The notes beneath the pieces are model-generated. The model worked only from the letters and a program-made list of their open reading frames with translations, made no database searches and was not told where the DNA came from. Shown in pieces: positions 18,013 to 26,082 of a DNA stretch of 64,000 nt. Origin of the DNA: Bacteroidales bacterium (GTDB lineage Bacteria; Bacteroidota; Bacteroidia; Bacteroidales; P3); assembly GCA_017962445.1 (NCBI GenBank), contig JAGCVI010000018.1:1-64000 (forward strand), given 5' to 3'. The number at the start of each line of letters is the position of its first letter. The stretch's first letter is position 1. The translations under genes were made by a program, and so were the position numbers.

Positions 18013-18040
18013 TAAAAATAGCCGTCATGATATGGCGGCT
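18010..18040 (-). terminator. terminator after 18083-18601 lipoprotein gene
   Basis: On the minus strand AGCCGCCA, a 5-nt loop and TGACGGCT form an 8-bp stem with one mismatch, followed by ATTTTTATTT. It is nearly identical to the hairpin at 18613-18638. Confidence 0.75.
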
Positions 18041-18082
18041 ATAGGTTGGCACGAACGATTTGCCGAAATGGTTCAACGGCTA

Positions 18083-18601
18083 TCAATAGTCATAACCAAA
18101 AAAATCATAATCATCTTCAAGGTCATCGATGGTCTCCTCATCAATTATATCGTAATCGTCATACGATCCATAGTCTGGAGCCGAACTGTTAGTCTGATAG
18201 TCATAATCATAGTCATTGCCATAGTCATTCTTGGAGGAACTATGATTGTTGAGAATATAAGTGAACCATTCGACATACCTTGAATCAACACCCTGTTTTT
18301 CAAACTCGTCGAGGAATATTTCCTTGACTCGTTTCTGTTCCTTCTCAGAGGGATACTTTTTGTCGAGCTCTTTTCCTTCTTTTTCTAATTCTTCTGTACA
18401 CTTGTCGTAACGATTTTTTTCAAGGTCTTTGAGACACCTGGCGGCATCCTTGGCGAAGAGACGGACATCCTTCTCAAGCTTGTCCTTGCTTTTGTCCTTA
18501 TCCCTACTCCGCTTTTTGCTACCGCCAAAGTTATCACAGGAAGCCATGGCAAAAACCAAGGCAATCGAGGCTAATACTAAAAATATTTTTTTCATAGTCA
18601 T
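18083..18601 (-). CDS. small lipoprotein, tandem family member 1
   Basis: This 172-aa protein has a signal peptide and lipobox (VFAMASC, lipid cysteine near residue 21). A Lys/Glu-rich helical middle contains a cysteine pair (RCLKDLEKNRYDKCTEELEKEGKELDKKY), and the tail is very rich in Asp/Tyr. The pattern second-cysteine-x3-L...KKY recurs in six further genes up to 21528, so this is the last and most diverged member of a tandem family. Unlike the others it lacks the 32-nt leader and instead follows a terminator. The function is unknown; the envelope location is inferred. Confidence 0.75.
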   Translation of the reverse strand: MTMKKIFLVLASIALVFAMASCDNFGGSKKRSRDKDKSKDKLEKDVRLFAKDAARCLKDLEKNRYDKCTEELEKEGKELDKKYPSEKEQKRVKEIFLDEFEKQGVDSRYVEWFTYILNNHSSSKNDYGNDYDYDYQTNSSAPDYGSYDDYDIIDEETIDDLEDDYDFFGYDY

Positions 18602-18612
18602 ATTTTTTGATT

Positions 18613-18638
18613 AAAAAAGCCGTCATAATATGGCGGCT
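18613..18638 (-). terminator. terminator after 18688-19095 lipoprotein gene
   Basis: On the minus strand AGCCGCCA-TATTA-TGACGGCT is followed by TTTTTT. It is almost the same hairpin as at 18010-18040. Confidence 0.85.
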
Positions 18639-18687
18639 AATCTATCTGTTATATGATACAGGATTACATCTGCTCCTGCATAGCAAA

Positions 18688-19114: not shown

Positions 19115-19146
19115 GCCTACTCTTTAATGGATTTTCGGCACACTCC
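19115..19146 (-). promoter_or_regulatory. 32-nt conserved leader, copy A
   Basis: The minus strand reads GGAGTGTGCCGAAAATCC then ATTAAAGAGTAGGC, ending 19 nt before the start of the 18688-19095 gene. It is one of six copies between 19115 and 21580. Confidence 0.75.
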
Positions 19147-19212
19147 ATTAATTATATTTCATTGACAGCACACACAGGCCTTCATGCAATAACTGTGGAC
19201 TGACTTTTGTAA

Positions 19213-19476
19213 CTATTTCTTTTCACCGCACTCTTTGGCGACCTTGTCGTATGCAGCGTTGTATTTATCTGTCTTCGCCACATCGTTGCCATACTTCTCT
19301 GCATATTTTGTAGCCAGCTCGTCAGCATTCTTGCATTTTTCATTATCAGCTTCTCCACCGGCCTGTATACATTCGCAATTAGCTTTTGCAGCTTTCTTTC
19401 CTGCTGATTTTGGACCACACGAAGCAAACGCAACCATCACTGTAGCTACAGCCAAAACACAAAAAACTTTTTTCAT
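19213..19476 (-). CDS. small lipoprotein, tandem family member 3
   Basis: This 87-aa lipoprotein (MKKVFCVLAVATVMVAFASCG, lipid cysteine at residue 20) has a short mature part with cysteines in NCECIQAG and NEKCKNADELATKYAEKYG and a final ECGEKK. The K-C-x3...KY motif ties it to the neighbouring paralogs. Leader copy B and a TACCTTTG element (19551-19558) lie upstream, so it heads a two-gene unit. The function is unknown. Confidence 0.75.
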   Translation of the reverse strand: MKKVFCVLAVATVMVAFASCGPKSAGKKAAKANCECIQAGGEADNEKCKNADELATKYAEKYGNDVAKTDKYNAAYDKVAKECGEKK

Positions 19477-19501
19477 CTTTTTGAATATAATATATTTATA
19501 G

Positions 19502-19533
19502 GCCTACTCTTTAACGGATTTTCGGCACACTCC
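19502..19533 (-). promoter_or_regulatory. 32-nt conserved leader, copy B
   Basis: The minus strand reads GGAGTGTGCCGAAAATCC then GTTAAAGAGTAGGC, 25 nt before the 19213-19476 start and downstream of a TACCTTTG -7 element at 19551-19558, so it should be in the transcript. Confidence 0.75.
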
Positions 19534-19550
19534 TGCTTTAAAACAATTTG

Positions 19551-19558
19551 CAAAGGTA
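19551..19558 (-). promoter_or_regulatory. -7 element for 19476/19095 lipoprotein unit
   Basis: TACCTTTG on the minus strand, 74 bp upstream of the 19476 start. A TTTG follows at 19571-19574, but the spacing is short (12 bp). Confidence 0.45.
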
Positions 19559-19689
19559 CAACTTTTTTTTCAAACGGCAATATTTTTGAGTTTTTCAATG
19601 TATAATGGTATAAACCCAATACACCTTTTTGATGATTTATCGCTGGCGAGACGAATGTATACCAGCAAAATATTTGGTTATGTACCACA

Positions 19690-19722
19690 AAAAAAAAAGC
19701 CATCCACACGGATGGCTTTTTT
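19690..19722 (-). terminator. terminator of 20546/20095 lipoprotein unit
   Basis: AGCCATCC-ACAC-GGATGGCT (19698-19717) is flanked by A and T runs on both sides, with at least eight T residues on the minus strand. It lies 22 bp past the stop of the 19745-20095 gene. Confidence 0.92.
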
Positions 19723-19744
19723 ATTTCAGCTAATAATTTAAATA

Positions 19745-20095
19745 CTATTTAGCTTTAGTAGGTAATTCTCTTGCAAGGCGTTTGAGTTTTTCCTGATTAA
19801 CCTTTGTGTTGCTAATCAACTCGTCGCGTTTTTTGTTAAAATCTTTCCTTTTTTCATCCTTGTTGACATATTTCAACAAGATTTCAGCCCTCATGACATA
19901 GAGATCCTCATTGCACTTGTCATAAGCATGCTCATCATCAACATTAGTGAATTTGCCTTGCTCGTTAGTAAGGTCTAACTTAACACATTTCTCGGCCTTT
20001 TTGACATATTTTTTTGCTTTTTTGTTAACGCCGCCACAAGAAGAGAACATAGCGACAACAGCAACAGCTGCAAATATATAAAGAACTTTTTTCAT
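19745..20095 (-). CDS. small lipoprotein, tandem family member 4
   Basis: This 116-aa lipoprotein (MKKVLYIFAAVAVVAMFSSCGG) has a Lys-rich helical mature part. The two family cysteines appear in AEKCVKLDL and YDKCNEDLYVMRAEILLKY, about 29 residues apart. The match to the neighbours at KC-x3-L...A...KY is clear. It has leader copy C 22 nt upstream and follows the 20178-20546 gene closely; both should end at the strong terminator at 19690-19722. The function is unknown. Confidence 0.78.
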   Translation of the reverse strand: MKKVLYIFAAVAVVAMFSSCGGVNKKAKKYVKKAEKCVKLDLTNEQGKFTNVDDEHAYDKCNEDLYVMRAEILLKYVNKDEKRKDFNKKRDELISNTKVNQEKLKRLARELPTKAK

Positions 20096-20117
20096 GGTTA
20101 GAATATTCTAAAAAAAA

Positions 20118-20149
20118 ACCTACTCTTTAAAGGATTTTCGGTATACTCC
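20118..20149 (-). promoter_or_regulatory. 32-nt conserved leader, copy C
   Basis: The minus strand reads GGAGTATACCGAAAATCC then TTTAAAGAGTAGGT, 22 nt before the 19745-20095 start. It lies between two genes of one transcription unit. Confidence 0.7.
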
Positions 20150-20177
20150 AATTAATTATATTTATATGCAAAGGCTG

Positions 20178-20546
20178 TTAAAAGCTCATATCTTCACCTG
20201 AGGAAAAACCTCTTCCCTCACTTTCGCCTTTATTTGCCTCGTTCTGAGCAGCATCGAAAATGCTATCCTGTTCATGATAGAACTTTCTATACTCTTTGTA
20301 TTTTACAGAGTCGCGAGCACCAGAATACTTCTTGTACATTTTAGCCTCCATAAGATTCAATTTGGCTGCGCATTTGTTGTACTCCTGCTCATCCTGACCG
20401 GATTTGCTGTTGTTATACTTGGTGTAAAGATCAGTACATTCTTTTTTCTTCTCGAAGTACTTTTTTACGTCTTTTTCCATATTGCCGCAGGAGGAGAAGA
20501 GAGCAACAACTGCGACAACAAGTGCTGTAGTAAAAATTTTTTTCAT
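20178..20546 (-). CDS. small lipoprotein, tandem family member 5
   Basis: This 122-aa lipoprotein (MKKIFTTALVVAVVALFSSCG) has a mature part with KKKECTDLYTKYNN and YNKCAAKLNLMEAKMYKKYSG, the best example of the family pattern: a first cysteine in K-E-C, a second in K-C-x3-L, then A-x4-KKY. The whole looks like a two-helix hairpin that a disulfide could clamp. It is preceded by leader copy D and a full promoter (20617-20649). Unknown function. Confidence 0.8.
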   Translation of the reverse strand: MKKIFTTALVVAVVALFSSCGNMEKDVKKYFEKKKECTDLYTKYNNSKSGQDEQEYNKCAAKLNLMEAKMYKKYSGARDSVKYKEYRKFYHEQDSIFDAAQNEANKGESEGRGFSSGEDMSF

Positions 20547-20566
20547 TATTTTTTTATTTTTATTAC

Positions 20567-20598
20567 GCCTACTCTTTAAAGGATTTTCGGCACACTCC
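20567..20598 (-). promoter_or_regulatory. 32-nt conserved leader, copy D
   Basis: The minus strand reads GGAGTGTGCCGAAAATCC then TTTAAAGAGTAGGC, 20 nt before the 20546 start. The promoter at 20617-20649 places it inside the 5' untranslated region. Confidence 0.78.
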
Positions 20599-20616
20599 CC
20601 GTATTAATTTTGCGTG

Positions 20617-20649
20617 CAAAAATACACATTAAATTCGTTATGAAGCAAA
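20617..20649 (-). promoter_or_regulatory. promoter of 20546/20095 lipoprotein unit
   Basis: On the minus strand TTTG (20646-20649) is followed after 21 bp by TATTTTTG (20617-20624). Confidence 0.7.
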
Positions 20650-20794
20650 AAAATGATATTATTTTTTTAACACCCTGTTAATTTATTGTTTTCAAACACT
20701 TTAAAATAACACATTTTTTTAGTGCATTAGCTATACATTCACAGAAAAAGATTATCAATCAGCATTGAAAACAACAAAAAACATGCATAAAAAA

Positions 20795-21151
20795 TCAATC
20801 ATCATTGTTGCTGGAATTGAAGGAACGATACATATCCTTGATGTCCTTTTTATCTATATCGGCATCATCCATGGCATCCTTTATAGCATCTTCAAAATCC
20901 TCCATCTCATCGTCATCACTATCATATTCTACATATTTCAAATCTATTCTGGCTTTCAATATTTCGAGATCATAGACGCAGTCCTTGAATTTCCTTTCGT
21001 TCTTTTCAGAATCATCGTCATCGTATTTTTCCTGAAGGTCGATACACTTCTTGGCTTTTTTGACTATACGTTTTGCATGGTATTCCGGACCACAAGATGC
21101 GAAAACCGATGCAAGAAAAACAACTGCAAATATTAAAACTATTTTTTTCAT
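20795..21151 (-). CDS. small lipoprotein, tandem family member 6
   Basis: This 118-aa lipoprotein (MKKIVLIFAVVFLASVFASCG) contains KKAKKCIDLQEKYDD and FKDCVYDLEILKARIDLKY, again two cysteines about 27 residues apart ahead of an A-x4-KY helix. The C-terminus is strongly acidic. Leader copy E lies 25 nt upstream, directly after the stop of the 21220-21528 gene. The function is unknown. Confidence 0.78.
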   Translation of the reverse strand: MKKIVLIFAVVFLASVFASCGPEYHAKRIVKKAKKCIDLQEKYDDDDSEKNERKFKDCVYDLEILKARIDLKYVEYDSDDDEMEDFEDAIKDAMDDADIDKKDIKDMYRSFNSSNNDD

Positions 21152-21176
21152 TTTAATTCATTCTTCAATTAATAAA

Positions 21177-21208
21177 GCCTACTCGTTAAAGGTTTTTCGG
21201 CAACCACC
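21177..21208 (-). promoter_or_regulatory. 32-nt conserved leader, copy E
   Basis: The minus strand reads GGTGGTTGCCGAAAAACC then TTTAACGAGTAGGC, the second most diverged copy, 25 nt before the 21151 start and 11 bp after the preceding stop. Confidence 0.65.
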
Positions 21209-21219
21209 TGAATTTCTAC

Positions 21220-21528
21220 TTAATCAGAATAGTCCTCGTCGTCTTCATATTCTTTCCACAAGTCCTTCAATTCATCATTGTAGTCGTCGTATTTGTTCTC
21301 ATCCCTGTATTCGGCATACTTCTTGGAAAACTTCAGACCCATAATTTTAGCTTTCAAATTGCATTCCTTCATTGCAGTCCTGTTTTTCTTGGTATCGTGC
21401 TTGCGTTCCAGTCTATTGCATTCTTTCTGTTTTTCAAAAAGCTTCTTGGCATCTGATTCCGGATTGCCGCAAGAAGAGAATGCCGCCACAACAGCGACAA
21501 GCACCAAAAGCGTCAAAAATTTCTTCAT
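21220..21528 (-). CDS. small lipoprotein, tandem family member 7
   Basis: This 102-aa lipoprotein has MKKFLTLLVLVAVVAAFSSCG as its signal; the longer upstream open frame has no such signal and runs through the leader, so the start at 21528 is chosen. The family cysteines are in KQKECNRLERKHD and MKECNLKAKIMGLKFSKKY. The C-terminus is acidic (EYEDDEDYSD). It heads the array on the minus strand. Unknown function. Confidence 0.78.
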   Translation of the reverse strand: MKKFLTLLVLVAVVAAFSSCGNPESDAKKLFEKQKECNRLERKHDTKKNRTAMKECNLKAKIMGLKFSKKYAEYRDENKYDDYNDELKDLWKEYEDDEDYSD

Positions 21529-21548
21529 TTTTATCGTTGTTATTTTAC

Positions 21549-21580
21549 GCCTACTCTTTGTCGGATTTTCAGCTGACTCC
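21549..21580 (-). promoter_or_regulatory. 32-nt conserved leader, copy F
   Basis: The minus strand reads GGAGTCAGCTGAAAATCC then GACAAAGAGTAGGC, 20 nt before the 21528 start. A TACTTTTG -7 element at 21599-21606 lies just upstream. Confidence 0.7.
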
Positions 21581-21598
21581 GTGTTGAATAATTTTTTG

Positions 21599-21819: not shown

Positions 21820-24800
21820 ATGAAAATAAGGATTAAAACTATAAAAATAATCATATTTTCCATTGTTGCATTATTGGTTCCCAATATGTTGCATGCTCGC
21901 AACGATCGCGACACTATCGGGACCGGTGCACGCATATTGTTTTCAGAAAACCTTGGACAGTGGAACGAACGCGTTCTTTTTCGCTCACAGATGCACAGCT
22001 CAACGCTGTTTGTGGAACGCGACTGTTTCACATTCGTGGTACAGCACCCCGACAACGAAAACCTGCACCACCCCGTGGCCAAATCCAACGCCACAGGCCG
22101 CTACCGCCAGCACTCCTACCGTCTGACTTTTGAAGGCTGCAGCACCCGAAGCGTGACGGGCGACGACAAGGAGCAATGCCTCGAGAACTACTTCCTGGGC
22201 CGCAACCGCAGTCGATGGGTGTCGGGCGTGGGTGTGTATCAGTCTGTCACTTACCATGACCTGTACAACAGCATCGACATGAAAGTCTACACAGCGAGCA
22301 ACGCAATGAAATACGACTTCGTGCTGCACCCAGGCGCCAAGGCCAGCGACATAGTAATGCGCTACGACGGCACGGACGGAATCAAGCTGCAGAACGGCAA
22401 TATAGTGGTCCGCACATCAGTTGTGGACATCGTCGAGTTGAGACCTTACGCATACCAAATCATCGACGGCAAACAGGTTGAAATAGAGGCTCGTTATATA
22501 CAGAAAGGCAACCGCATAACCTTTGAACTTGGCGATTACGACACCACACAGATTCTAATTATTGACCCATACCTGCACTTCTCGACCTACACAGGCTCGA
22601 CCGCCGACAACTGGGGAACCACCGGCTGCTACGACTCGAATAAAAACACCTACACATCTGGCGTGGTGTTCGGCACCGGCTACCCGGTCTCACTGGGCGC
22701 ATACGACGGCACATACAATGGCAACTGCGACATAGGCATCTTCAAATTCAACGAAACAGGCACTACACGCCTATACGCCACCTACCTGGGCGGCAGCATG
22801 GCGGATATGCCGCACAGCATGTATGTCAACTCGTTTGACGAACTTGTGATTTTCGGCACCACAGGCTCGTCCGACTTCCCTGTAACCTCCAACGCCTACG
22901 ACACCACCTTCAACGGTGGCACCTCACTGCAGTATGAAGGCAGCTCGACAATCAACTTCCCAAACGGATCTGACATATTCATATGCCGATTCAACCAGCA
23001 GGGAACACAGTTGCAGGCCTCGACATACGTTGGCGGCAACGGCAACGACGGACTTAACTACCGCAACTCGTTCGACTACGTCACCATAATGCTTGGCAAC
23101 GATTCGCTTTACTATAACTATGGCGACGGCGCACGCGGCGAGCTGATGACAGACGACATGAACAACATCTACATTGGCTCGACAACAACATCCACCAACT
23201 TCCCTGTAACCCAAAACTGTATACAATACTCCAACCACGGAGGTCAGGACGGCGTGGTGTTCAAGATCGACTACAACCTGTCGAACATGATGTGGAGCAG
23301 CTATCTTGGCGGCACCAGCGACGATGCAATCTATTCGATAGACTGCGACAAAGAGTACAATGTGGTGGTATGCGGCGGAACCAACTCGATTGACTTCCCC
23401 ACGACCGCCAATGCCTACCAGCATTTCAATCAAGGCGGCAGTGCCGACGGCTTCGTGTCGAAGATATCATACCACGGTAACATGCTGATGGGCAGCACCT
23501 ATTTCGGATCGGCAACATACGACCAAAGCTATTTTGTACGCTGCAGCAAAAGCGACGACATCTTCATCTTCGGACAAACAAAGGCCTCTGGCAGTACACT
23601 TATACATAATGCAAACTACAACACGCCGAACAGCGGACAATTTCTGGCGCGCTTCAAGCCAGGACTTGACACCTTGGTGTGGAGCACCGTGTTCGGTGAT
23701 GGCAGCGGAGAGCCCAACATCTCACCTACAGCATTCGCCGTTGACGTATGCAACCGTTTGTATCTCAGTGGATGGGGTCGAATATTTCTTGGGCGTAGCC
23801 TGGGTGGTATGATATACGCATGGAACACCCACGGCACAAGCAACCTTAGTGTGACAAGCGATGCCTACCAGAGTGTCACCGATGGACAGGATTTCTATAT
23901 CATGAGTCTCGACATGGATGCCAACCAGCTGGTCTACGCCACCTATTTCGGTGAACTGCACAACTCGTCGGAATACTACAGCGGCGGCGACCACGTGGAC
24001 GGCGGCACCAGCCGATTTGACCGCCACGGCACACTGTACCAGTCGGTGTGCGCCAGCTGTTCGGGCGGCGACAACTTCCCCGTCACCACAGGAGCCTACG
24101 GACAGCACAACAACAGCAACAACTGCAACAACGCCATATTCCGTCTGAACCTGACCAATGACTTTCCTGTGGCAGAATTCTCGGTGCCAACAACCGTGTG
24201 CGTCAACGGCTCGGCAAGCTTTGTCAATACGGGACGCGGCGACAGTTTCACATGGGATTTCGGCGACGGCACAACACAGACGACCACAACGACACAGAAT
24301 GTCAGCCACAACTACACCACACCTGGATTGTATACAGTAACTCAGATAGCCCACATGACAGGCGGATGCCGCGAGACCGACACCACCACACGACAGATGA
24401 TGGTAATAGGCAATATCCACTACAACCTCGACACTTTGGCCACATGTCCCGGCATACCACTGCAGATAGGCCTGCAACCATCACTAGGCTGCACCTACCA
24501 ATGGATTTCGGGCAGCGTGAGCGACAGCACCATTGCCAACCCCTACGTGACACTAAGCGGGACATACATTCTTGTGATTTCGAACGGCACATGCAGCGAC
24601 ACCGCTTTCCAGATAGTGAATGTAGGCGAAGCCAATGCCGACATCGTGGGCGACACTGTCAGCTGCTCAGTCCCGACAATACTGAATGTCATTCCTTCGT
24701 CGAGCAACAACATATACCACTGGTCGAGCAACAGCAGTTTCAGCGACACCCTCAACAGCAACATGCACGAAAGCAGCTATTCATTCACACCTGTCGAACA

Positions 24801-26082
24801 GCAATGGATTTACCTGCACGTGGAGGACAACCTGGGGTGCGTGAAGGATGACAGCATTCATGTAAGATTCTACAAGGTGCTGGACAGCCTTATAATAACA
24901 GAACCCACATGCCCCAACAGCTGCAACGGTTCGGCGACACTGACACTTACATCCGAGGCCACACCACCGTTCCAGTACAACTGGATAACCGGCTGGACCA
25001 ACGCAAACAGTTACAACGGATATTGCCAAGGCAACTACACCGTGTTGTTCCGCGACGGCAACGGCTGTGCGGTTTCAGAGGACTTCACCATCAACGACCC
25101 GCTGCCACCGACCATCATCGCAACAGTGGAGCATGTGCGGTGCCACGAGACATGCACCGGAAGCGTCGACATAACCGTCAACGGCAACTCGACCTACAGT
25201 CTACTGTGGCTGGACGACAATTCGACCTCGTCTACCCGCAACGACTTGTGTCCCGGAACCTACATACTTCAGGTGACCGACAGCAATGGATGCCAGTTCT
25301 ATGACACCATTGTAATCTTGGACAATGTGGACATGAACGTCGACATAACCTTCTCACAAAACAGCTGTAGCGACGAGTGCAGCGGCAAAGCCATTGCAGC
25401 TGCCAGCGGCGGAGATGCCCCATACAGTTATGTATGGAATTCGGGCGAGCAGGACAGCACGGCAGAGCACCTGTGTGAAGGCATGGCCGTTGTGGTGGTG
25501 ACCGACATATATGGATGCGAGGTTCGCGATAGCGTGATGATAGGACGGCAACATACGTTCGACAGCCTGCAAGTATGGGCCGACAGCTATACAATCTTCA
25601 GTGGCAACAGCACGACGCTGCATGCCACACACATACCTAATGTAAGCTACTACTGGATGCCCTCGGACAAGCTTGACAACGCGTCTTCGCCTGACCCCGA
25701 GGCGACATTACAGGATACTACGACATTCGTCCTGACCGTGGTCGACTCGATAGGATGCACGTTTGTCGACTCGCTAACCATTAAATGTATCAGTGTCAAC
25801 TGCGGCAAGCCGAACATATTCATCCCCAACGCTTTCACCCCAGACAACGACGGCCGAAACGATCGTCTGTGCTTCAGCGGTGACTGGGTCAGAGAATTCC
25901 ACATCACCATCTTCACACGTTGGGGCGAGAAGGTATATGAAAGCGACGACATGAACGAATGCTGGGACGGACGTTTCCGCGACAACTGGTGTATGCCAGG
26001 CGTATATGTATACCACTGCCGAATAATATGCCAGGACGGACAAGAATCAGAATTCAAAGGCGACATAACTTTGATAAGATGA
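21820..26082 (+). CDS. large surface protein with SBBP, PKD, SprB-type repeats and T9SS type B C-terminal domain
   Basis: This 1420-aa protein has a signal peptide (IIIFSIVALLVPNMLHA). The N-terminal 220 residues match the DUF7948-type domain (ENLGQWNERVLF). Residues about 250-780 hold SBBP-type beta-propeller repeats (ATYLGGSMADMPHS, SSYLGGTSDDAIYS, STYFGSATYDQS). A PKD domain follows (FTWDFGDGTTQ), then three cysteine-containing SprB-like repeats (TEPTCPNSCNGSATL, EHVRCHETCTGSVDI, SQNSCSDECSGKAI). The last 90 residues are the gliding-motility C-terminal domain (IPNAFTPDNDGRNDRL...FTRWGEKVYES), the type IX secretion signal. It should be exported and anchored at the surface, perhaps as an adhesin. 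Its stop overlaps the next start (ATGA). Confidence 0.9.
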   Translation: MKIRIKTIKIIIFSIVALLVPNMLHARNDRDTIGTGARILFSENLGQWNERVLFRSQMHSSTLFVERDCFTFVVQHPDNENLHHPVAKSNATGRYRQHSYRLTFEGCSTRSVTGDDKEQCLENYFLGRNRSRWVSGVGVYQSVTYHDLYNSIDMKVYTASNAMKYDFVLHPGAKASDIVMRYDGTDGIKLQNGNIVVRTSVVDIVELRPYAYQIIDGKQVEIEARYIQKGNRITFELGDYDTTQILIIDPYLHFSTYTGSTADNWGTTGCYDSNKNTYTSGVVFGTGYPVSLGAYDGTYNGNCDIGIFKFNETGTTRLYATYLGGSMADMPHSMYVNSFDELVIFGTTGSSDFPVTSNAYDTTFNGGTSLQYEGSSTINFPNGSDIFICRFNQQGTQLQASTYVGGNGNDGLNYRNSFDYVTIMLGNDSLYYNYGDGARGELMTDDMNNIYIGSTTTSTNFPVTQNCIQYSNHGGQDGVVFKIDYNLSNMMWSSYLGGTSDDAIYSIDCDKEYNVVVCGGTNSIDFPTTANAYQHFNQGGSADGFVSKISYHGNMLMGSTYFGSATYDQSYFVRCSKSDDIFIFGQTKASGSTLIHNANYNTPNSGQFLARFKPGLDTLVWSTVFGDGSGEPNISPTAFAVDVCNRLYLSGWGRIFLGRSLGGMIYAWNTHGTSNLSVTSDAYQSVTDGQDFYIMSLDMDANQLVYATYFGELHNSSEYYSGGDHVDGGTSRFDRHGTLYQSVCASCSGGDNFPVTTGAYGQHNNSNNCNNAIFRLNLTNDFPVAEFSVPTTVCVNGSASFVNTGRGDSFTWDFGDGTTQTTTTTQNVSHNYTTPGLYTVTQIAHMTGGCRETDTTTRQMMVIGNIHYNLDTLATCPGIPLQIGLQPSLGCTYQWISGSVSDSTIANPYVTLSGTYILVISNGTCSDTAFQIVNVGEANADIVGDTVSCSVPTILNVIPSSSNNIYHWSSNSSFSDTLNSNMHESSYSFTPVEQQWIYLHVEDNLGCVKDDSIHVRFYKVLDSLIITEPTCPNSCNGSATLTLTSEATPPFQYNWITGWTNANSYNGYCQGNYTVLFRDGNGCAVSEDFTINDPLPPTIIATVEHVRCHETCTGSVDITVNGNSTYSLLWLDDNSTSSTRNDLCPGTYILQVTDSNGCQFYDTIVILDNVDMNVDITFSQNSCSDECSGKAIAAASGGDAPYSYVWNSGEQDSTAEHLCEGMAVVVVTDIYGCEVRDSVMIGRQHTFDSLQVWADSYTIFSGNSTTLHATHIPNVSYYWMPSDKLDNASSPDPEATLQDTTTFVLTVVDSIGCTFVDSLTIKCISVNCGKPNIFIPNAFTPDNDGRNDRLCFSGDWVREFHITIFTRWGEKVYESDDMNECWDGRFRDNWCMPGVYVYHCRIICQDGQESEFKGDITLIR

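Follow-up and report, generated by a model that had tools for sequence, protein, structure and literature searches.

The DUF805b RNA is catalogued in Rfam (RF02914; clan CL00115) as a cis-regulatory family found mostly in Bacteroidota, and was reportedly first described in a paper of 2017. The literature search returned no paper on DUF805 RNA, on DUF805b or on DUF805 together with a riboswitch, and none joining DUF805 and pseudoknot among the matches listed; as far as these searches show, the family is already catalogued and its job was not found described. Neither the pseudoknot nor the variety of downstream genes reported below is claimed as new to the literature. Here, we analyse six copies of this element on the minus strand of a 64,000-nucleotide (nt) stretch of a Bacteroidales bacterium (assembly GCA_017962445.1, contig JAGCVI010000018.1, positions 1–64,000; hereafter the window, in whose positions coordinates are given), the genome of which comprises 2.04 Mb in 38 contigs and is 80% complete. 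A first-pass annotation made from the letters alone had described the six as leaders of small lipoprotein genes, more probably an RNA or protein-binding element than a leader peptide. The six leaders are real and belong to this catalogued orphan RNA family; the RNA-element reading was right and the tie to lipoproteins wrong. Our reading, to which we give a probability of about 0.68 on the sequence comparisons below, is that the DUF805b pseudoknot would be a portable, per-cistron translational control element read by a factor.

Several better-known systems come close. The preQ1-I riboswitch is likewise an H-type pseudoknot of about 34 nt with an A-rich loop, placed near the start codon and exerting translational control, but its conserved letters differ, and no queuosine family was found behind DUF805b among the matches listed. 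Cyclic di-GMP (GEMM) riboswitches likewise precede diverse genes, including those for secreted and phage proteins, and may occur in tandem, but they are far larger and have another fold. The CsrA/Rsm and Hfq regulons likewise place one short RNA signal near the start codons of many accessory genes, but Hfq, CsrA and ProQ were found in none of 21 genomes searched and RRM_1 in four of the 21, none of them among the 13 of the window's genus, which include the window's own incomplete genome and 12 relatives, some incomplete too. The remaining comparison is the A-rich, Kozak-like signal of Bacteroidota. PMC6847099 describes Bacteroidota mRNAs as being without Shine–Dalgarno sequences and reports, from ribosome profiling and reporter tests in Flavobacterium johnsoniae, stronger initiation with an A at −3, −6, −12 or −13 and a tendency of the stretch from −20 to +20 to be unstructured. 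Immediately behind DUF805b, there is an excess of A-3, A-12 and A-13, and a weaker one of A-6; the published signal is itself unstructured, unlike DUF805b, and the word pseudoknot is absent from that paper's main text.

Family membership and pseudoknot fold

All six window copies matched RF02914 across the full model (positions 1–35). Two scored above the gathering threshold of 35.6 bits (42.0 and 38.2) and four below it, at 31.4–35.4 bits, with E-values of 1.7e-7 to 3.8e-6 that derive from a 4-kb search. None of 14 control genomes contained an RF02914 match at E 1e-3. The guess that RF02913 is a sister DUF805 family was discarded, as that accession is pemK.

The fold is that of an H-type pseudoknot, in which helix P1 is formed by GGN and N'CC, and the NCC within the P1 loop pairs with GGN' at the 3' end to form helix P2. 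GAAAA lies between the 5' strand of P2 and the 3' strand of P1, and GAGUA precedes the 3' strand of P2; both loop stretches are strongly conserved, although this conservation is partly demanded by the way in which elements were selected. P1 is present in the window copies as in the Rfam consensus, the printed line of which has P1 only; the P2 pseudoknot was counted in the present analysis.

A test for covariation, suggested with the first-pass annotation, was run and found both P1 and P2 to covary. The second P1 pair (8/25) was formed in 133 of 137 distinct elements, compared with 84 in the best of 1000 shuffles, and the outer (first) P2 pair likewise in 133 of 137, compared with 87. GC, AU, UA and CG each occurred at both test pairs, and offset control pairs remained at shuffle level. 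The 137 elements carry CCGAAAA and GAGTAGG, come from loci L001–L160, lie outside the pattern scan and passed no stem filter. Most of these loci were found through the Rfam model, which rewards P1; the printed model is without P2, so that P2 provides the cleaner test. In an alignment of 95 elements (94 distinct), 97.3% of cells were paired (P1 alone, 96.1% over the 94 distinct rows), and the covariation score was 0.578, versus 0.132 after shuffling and no more than 0.058 when the partners were slid. Rows other than the window copies were chosen there by fixed CCGAAAA and GAGTAGG, leaving only the outer P2 pair free to vary; the inner P2 pairs vary in a looser element set, which also holds chance matches. 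Loci L161–L279 show less variety, having been chosen by a pattern with GCC/GGC and UCC letters. A loose pattern gave 411 matches, of which a rule that takes pairing into account removed 76 and kept 335 (302 unique elements); covariation was therefore taken from the set without a stem filter and from the 95-element alignment.

The window array, start-codon position and initiation context

The features of the array, all on the minus strand and with elements of 34 nt, are as follows.

21549–21582, minus strand: DUF805b element copy F; RF02914 38.2 bits, above gathering (35.6); P1 GGA/UCC; P2 GCU/GGC, including a G-U pair; TAnnTTTG box upstream
21220–21528, minus strand: lipoprotein-like gene of 102 amino acids (aa), starting 20 nt after copy F; lipobox by eye
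21177–21210, minus strand: DUF805b element copy E; RF02914 33.2 bits, E 9.5e-7, below gathering; P1 GGU/ACC, compensatory; 9 nt past the preceding gene's stop codon
20795–21151, minus strand: 118-aa lipoprotein-like gene, starting 25 nt after copy E; lipobox by eye
20567–20600, minus strand: DUF805b element copy D; RF02914 34.9 bits, E 2.4e-7, below gathering; behind a TAnnTTTG box
20178–20546, minus strand: 122-aa lipoprotein-like gene, starting 20 nt after copy D; lipobox by eye
20118–20151, minus strand: DUF805b element copy C; RF02914 35.4 bits, E 1.7e-7, just below gathering; P2 ACC/GGU, compensatory; 26 nt past the preceding gene's stop codon
19745–20095, minus strand: 116-aa lipoprotein-like gene, starting 22 nt after copy C; lipobox by eye
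19693–19722, minus strand: terminator-like hairpin 3' of the middle gene pair; 13-pair stem, then a T run
19502–19535, minus strand: DUF805b element copy B; RF02914 31.4 bits, E 3.8e-6, below gathering; behind a TAnnTTTG box
19213–19476, minus strand: 87-aa lipoprotein-like gene, starting 25 nt after copy B; lipobox by eye
19115–19148, minus strand: DUF805b element copy A; RF02914 42.0 bits, above gathering; 64 nt past the preceding gene's stop codon
18688–19095, minus strand: 135-aa lipoprotein-like gene, starting 19 nt after copy A; lipobox by eye
18083–18601, minus strand: seventh lipoprotein-like gene of the array, with no detected element upstream

The three core pairs of P1 are formed in all six copies, and the model's fourth, outer pair is non-standard in two. 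One compensatory change per helix was observed: GGU/ACC for GGA/UCC in P1 of copy E and ACC/GGU for GCC/GGC in P2 of copy C. Copy E had been set apart as changed; it does differ, but it is not simply degraded, as its P1 helix is restored by compensation. The placement of six minus-strand leaders 19–25 nt before six of the seven genes was borne out, with spacers from element to ATG of 20, 25, 20, 22, 25 and 19 nt. For the seventh gene, the upstream stretch was covered by the Rfam search, and no element was found.

A half-motif search allowing up to three mismatches gave five occurrences in the window versus 0.08 expected from shuffles, and missed the sixth copy as too divergent. A longer pattern, also with up to three mismatches, occurred six times genome-wide, always in the array, versus none for the reversed control. 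Mean identity among the six copies was 81% for the leader, 46% for the coding sequences and 62% for the signal-peptide codons, which agrees with the claim that the genes have diverged more than a leader under selection. The flanks are shared far less: identity falls to 40% in the spacer and to 38% in the upstream 30 nt. Copies B, D and F lie 17–18 nt behind a TAnnTTTG promoter box, and copies E, C and A are found 9, 26 and 64 nt past the preceding gene's stop codon without such a box. By its layout, the array would comprise three units of two genes, with one copy next to the promoter and one inside each unit, and it fits the earlier view of leaders both behind promoters and inside operons, with operons deduced from layout. 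A sigma-70 scan gave no signal (seven sites versus 13.4 expected), and TAnnTTTG was used in its place.

The Pfam search with the seven array proteins gave no match over the cut-off. Searches for relatives of the lipoprotein-like genes gave matches in 52 of 89 genomes from the genus, many of them covering little beyond the signal peptide. Six further relatives lie elsewhere in the own genome; none coincides with any of the seven places at which that genome matches RF02914 with E below 1e-6, and gene family and element therefore look separable. The array is likely to have grown by local duplication of gene plus leader.

Of note, near-identical GCCGCCATATyATGACGGC hairpins flank the seventh gene at about 18018–18042 and 18616–18640 (minus strand); they were seen by eye, are perhaps terminators, and do not appear in the computed listing of hairpins and terminators that gave 19693–19722. 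Divergent from the array, the plus strand at 21820–26082 carries an open reading frame (ORF) of 1420 aa that looks by eye to encode a secreted, repeat-rich surface protein of the type IX secretion system (T9SS)/gliding type. Other Rfam hits in the window were rejected: two Phe_leader matches and one ctRNA match were far under their cut-offs and overlapped the terminator at 19693–19722, and a ylbH match away from that terminator had an E-value of 0.98.

Across the family, 259 of 302 elements have an ATG that opens an ORF of at least 30 aa at 16–31 nt behind GGN. Applied to random positions within these loci, the rule succeeded in 260 of 3020 cases, and on the strand opposite the element in 11 of 217. 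A same-strand ORF of at least 80 aa ended within 100 nt upstream in 58 of the 214 elements with enough upstream sequence. TAnnTTTG occurred within 70 nt upstream of 49 of 295 elements (reversed control, 11). At two loci, two complete elements precede one gene: at L222 (2552 and 2613), they are 60 nt apart, and at L234 (1039 and 1088, minus-strand count) 47 nt. The 19–25-nt spacer of the window copies would be too short for a terminator. Copies on successive cistrons, with no space for a terminator before the start codon, point to translation as the level of control.

The start sites behind the element were compared with the published initiation signature. Among genes with a predicted signal peptide, those with the element (120) exceeded those without (191) in A-3 (89 versus 99), A-12 (90 versus 100) and A-13 (92 versus 102), each with p <1e-4. 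The G+C content of positions −20 to −1 was 17% in element genes and 28% in controls. In the window, A-3 is shared by all six genes that follow an element, and A-6 by five of them. Among 24 distinct low-G+C phage genes with an element, A-12, A-13 and A-6 were each present in 22, A-11 in 20 and A-3 in 18. The predicted pseudoknot ends where the initiation region begins, before start sites that look strong.

Occurrence in genomes, downstream genes and phages

Searching the genome and its relatives for the motif, as had been suggested, yielded a seventh, divergent own-genome copy, located by covariance model in contig C16 (143318–143357), with all other places in that genome at E above 0.1; at least 101 of 149 genomes of the family contained a match at E 1e-3. 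In a phylum survey at 1e-5, matches were present in at least 96 of 395 genomes and at least 48 of 171 genera, with up to at least 15 per genome. These surveys scored limited numbers of candidates per genome (42 for the family, 17 for the phylum), so that copies and positive genomes are lower bounds. An exact pattern scan of named genomes gave at least 119 stretches, and 78 of the 80 listed titles were Bacteroidota. Six genomes reached through named loci held one to seven copies each at 1e-4. The other two listed titles of the pattern scan are metagenome-assembled genomes labelled Ruminococcus and Thermoanaerobaculia (L166 and L209), the contigs of which are either mis-binned Bacteroidota or true outliers.

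The seventh own copy lies 22 nt before a gene for a 217-aa protein that is of outer-membrane type by eye. An ORF was found behind 281 of the 302 unique elements under a rule that looks up to 60 nt ahead and prefers an ATG at 8–40 nt, for which the count at random places serves as control; several of the 21 elements without an ORF are chance matches. The 281 proteins form 191 clusters. Pfam was run on 186 of the 191 cluster representatives (five short or cut ORFs omitted) and NCBIfam on the first 100, with results taken from the first 25 families listed for each. Pfam families comprised PixA, outer-membrane barrels, T9SS sorting domains, rhodopsin, subtilase, DUF805, caspase, phage collar, CsgG, DUF2589, FHA and restriction-enzyme domains, among others, and no family was found in more than two representatives of either set (100 and 86) among the matches listed. 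NCBIfam gave six bacteriocin-like leaders (leader_Chryseo), two CCPGW bacteriocins and a class I lanthipeptide, among others. DUF805 genes are a small minority, with one cluster of three among the 281 proteins. A crude rule assigned a signal peptide or membrane start to 141 of the 281, a share that stands without a background rate. Many of the downstream genes look accessory, including bacteriocin-like precursors, lipoproteins and PixA.

The seventh copy before an outer-membrane-type protein and the diverse genes elsewhere rule out a lipoprotein-specific regulon, and with it the assignment of the leader to small lipoproteins: the motif is common before outer-membrane-type, bacteriocin-like, PixA and phage genes. 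Frequent occurrence away from lipoprotein genes had been named in advance as contrary to that assignment, with a transposable repeat as the example; the motif is indeed common there, but not as such a repeat, given its unshared flanks and narrow distance to the gene.

Three sets of downstream peptides were set apart. Small peptides with GG-type leaders, like bacteriocin precursors or precursors of ribosomally synthesized and post-translationally modified peptides (RiPPs), lie behind the element at L114, L142, L151, L216, L228, L260, L365 and L383. Short peptides at L054, L234, L238 and L258 (a cluster of six) have AKN-P-G-SYAAGCP and a cysteine-bearing tail in common and are possibly a RiPP precursor family. 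A family of about 100 aa without a signal peptide (L028, L037, L223, L236, L249 and L251; a cluster of seven) carries GRMKVKTLK..FGSTLRVYKG..FADDxATLAS.

In IMG/VR, 54 elements were found in 51 loci, 44 of which have a G+C content of at most 50% and seven a higher one. P1 was complete in 53 of the 54, and an ATG ORF lay within 45 nt in 52; because these loci were chosen by patterns that fix P2 and the 3' side of P1, only the 5' side of P1 and the position are independent tests. PHROGs searches with eight proteins from seven viral contigs identified terminase large subunits on three low-G+C contigs, a tape measure protein on one contig and a tail protein on another, and an integrase on a high-G+C contig; one protein matched only a family of unknown function, and the L303 protein had no match. 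In low-G+C viral contigs (L280–L319, L323, L327 and L330), the element lies at the same distance before genes that by eye are XRE-regulator-, ParB- and HNH-like, together with many unnamed ones, and some of these stretches hold two elements. A related set of viral contigs (L320, L321, L324–L326, L328 and L329; G+C 54–57% in five) has the UCC/GGA form upstream of a single small conserved gene, at a distance of 8 or 23 nt depending on the ATG chosen; these contigs may belong to phages that infect hosts beyond the usual ones, or the set may have inherited a chance match.

Proposed translational control and its alternatives

In the proposed mechanism, the 34-nt H-type pseudoknot, the end of which lies some 20 nt ahead of the start codon and borders the unstructured initiation region, would act on translation initiation of the single gene behind it. 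Since control would be limited to the next gene, each cistron in an operon would, we propose, have its own copy. The folded pseudoknot would be read by a diffusible factor, either a protein or a small signalling molecule, and this factor would govern how readily the 30S subunit reaches a strong, A-rich start site that is independent of a Shine–Dalgarno sequence. The pseudoknot, its narrow position, its presence on consecutive cistrons, the variety of genes behind it, its carriage by phages and the strong-initiation signature are all read from sequence; that control acts at translation, that a factor reads the element and in which direction it works are inferred.

Several observations weigh against this proposal. 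TAnnTTTG is commonest 8–11 nt before P1, so that the element can be near the 5' end of the RNA and may affect RNA stability. In the comparison of signal-peptide genes with and without the element, A-6 (65 of 120 versus 82 of 191; p 0.06) and A-11 (79 of 120 versus 111 of 191; p 0.19) did not follow the other positions, some of the rule-based control starts are false, and phage element genes have A-14 in just 11 of 24 cases. An A-rich signature would also be expected if element genes were well translated for other reasons. In the family, 48 of 149 genomes were without a match (weak matches can be lost), and the element therefore looks dispensable; moreover, the covariation counts ignore kinship among elements.

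The best-surviving alternative, which we nevertheless hold to be unlikely, is a constitutive translation enhancer or standby site, in which a ligand-free pseudoknot would dock on or near the 30S subunit or keep the A-rich spacer open, and so raise initiation in a phylum that lacks Shine–Dalgarno sequences. It would account for the strong-initiation signature adjoining the element in hosts and phages alike, for the low G+C content of −20 to −1, for phage copies at the same distance and for functionally incoherent genes. The conserved loop letters and the tandem copies at L222 and L234 look receptor-like instead, and many downstream genes look accessory, but no point here is decisive.

A shade less likely is a translational riboswitch for a small signalling molecule. 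The element resembles the smallest pseudoknot riboswitches (preQ1-I) in size and topology, and the conserved unpaired letters (GAAAA and GAGUA, in part a product of selection) and tandem copies are consistent with a receptor, but no recurring biosynthesis or transport family names a ligand among the matches listed. Coherent downstream genes pointing to a ligand were not found (191 clusters from 281 proteins), although a second-messenger riboswitch need not have them, and a sensor of that kind would explain the diversity of genes.

On a par with the riboswitch, and similarly doubtful, is a site for an RNA-binding protein or a base-pairing small RNA, as part of a post-transcriptional regulon of the Gac/Rsm kind. 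The mix of secreted, lipoprotein, bacteriocin-like and phage genes resembles that of global post-transcriptional regulons, and a GGA lies in a stem near the start. Hfq, CsrA, ProQ and RRM_1, however, were not found in the 13 genomes of the genus and are therefore unlikely readers here, so that the partner would be another; a small RNA pairing with GGN would compete with the covarying P2.

That a transposable or duplicated DNA repeat has spread, or that the leader is a DNA element of promoter type, is very improbable: six copies in one array of similar genes would suit this reading, but it is refuted for the family by flanks of 38–40% identity beside an element of 81%, by compensatory changes, by copies 9–64 nt past a stop codon without TAnnTTTG and by the narrow distance to unrelated starts in many genera. 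A leader peptide (VCRKSFKE-stop) or attenuator has next to no standing. One frame reads alike in several window copies, but across 266 elements no frame is stop-free throughout (groups of 60, 56, 50 and 16 carry stops in different combinations of two or three frames), element length modulo 3 varies (143/100/23), covariation is at the level of base pairs and the invariant columns contain no start codon, which refutes the peptide as a general explanation and upholds the earlier preference for an RNA element.

To our knowledge, little is known about post-transcriptional control in Bacteroidota. At somewhat less than even odds, DUF805b would be the cis half of a phylum-wide translational control system in bacteria that lack Shine–Dalgarno sequences and, within this genus, the familiar global RNA regulators: a portable pseudoknot of 34 nt, placed one cistron at a time ahead of lipoprotein, bacteriocin-like, secreted-protein and phage genes and read by a protein, a second messenger or the ribosome itself. 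DUF805b RNA could help to find bacteriocin- or RiPP-precursor-like genes and could serve as a ready-made control part for Bacteroidota. One strain (CI04) of F. johnsoniae, a laboratory model with published ribosome profiling, carries seven matches to RF02914 at E 1e-4. A compact orphan element at the edge of the initiation region, next to the published strong-initiation letters and also borne by phages, offers a handle on translation control without Shine–Dalgarno sequences in this phylum, and the phage copies together with the initiation signature make the question testable.

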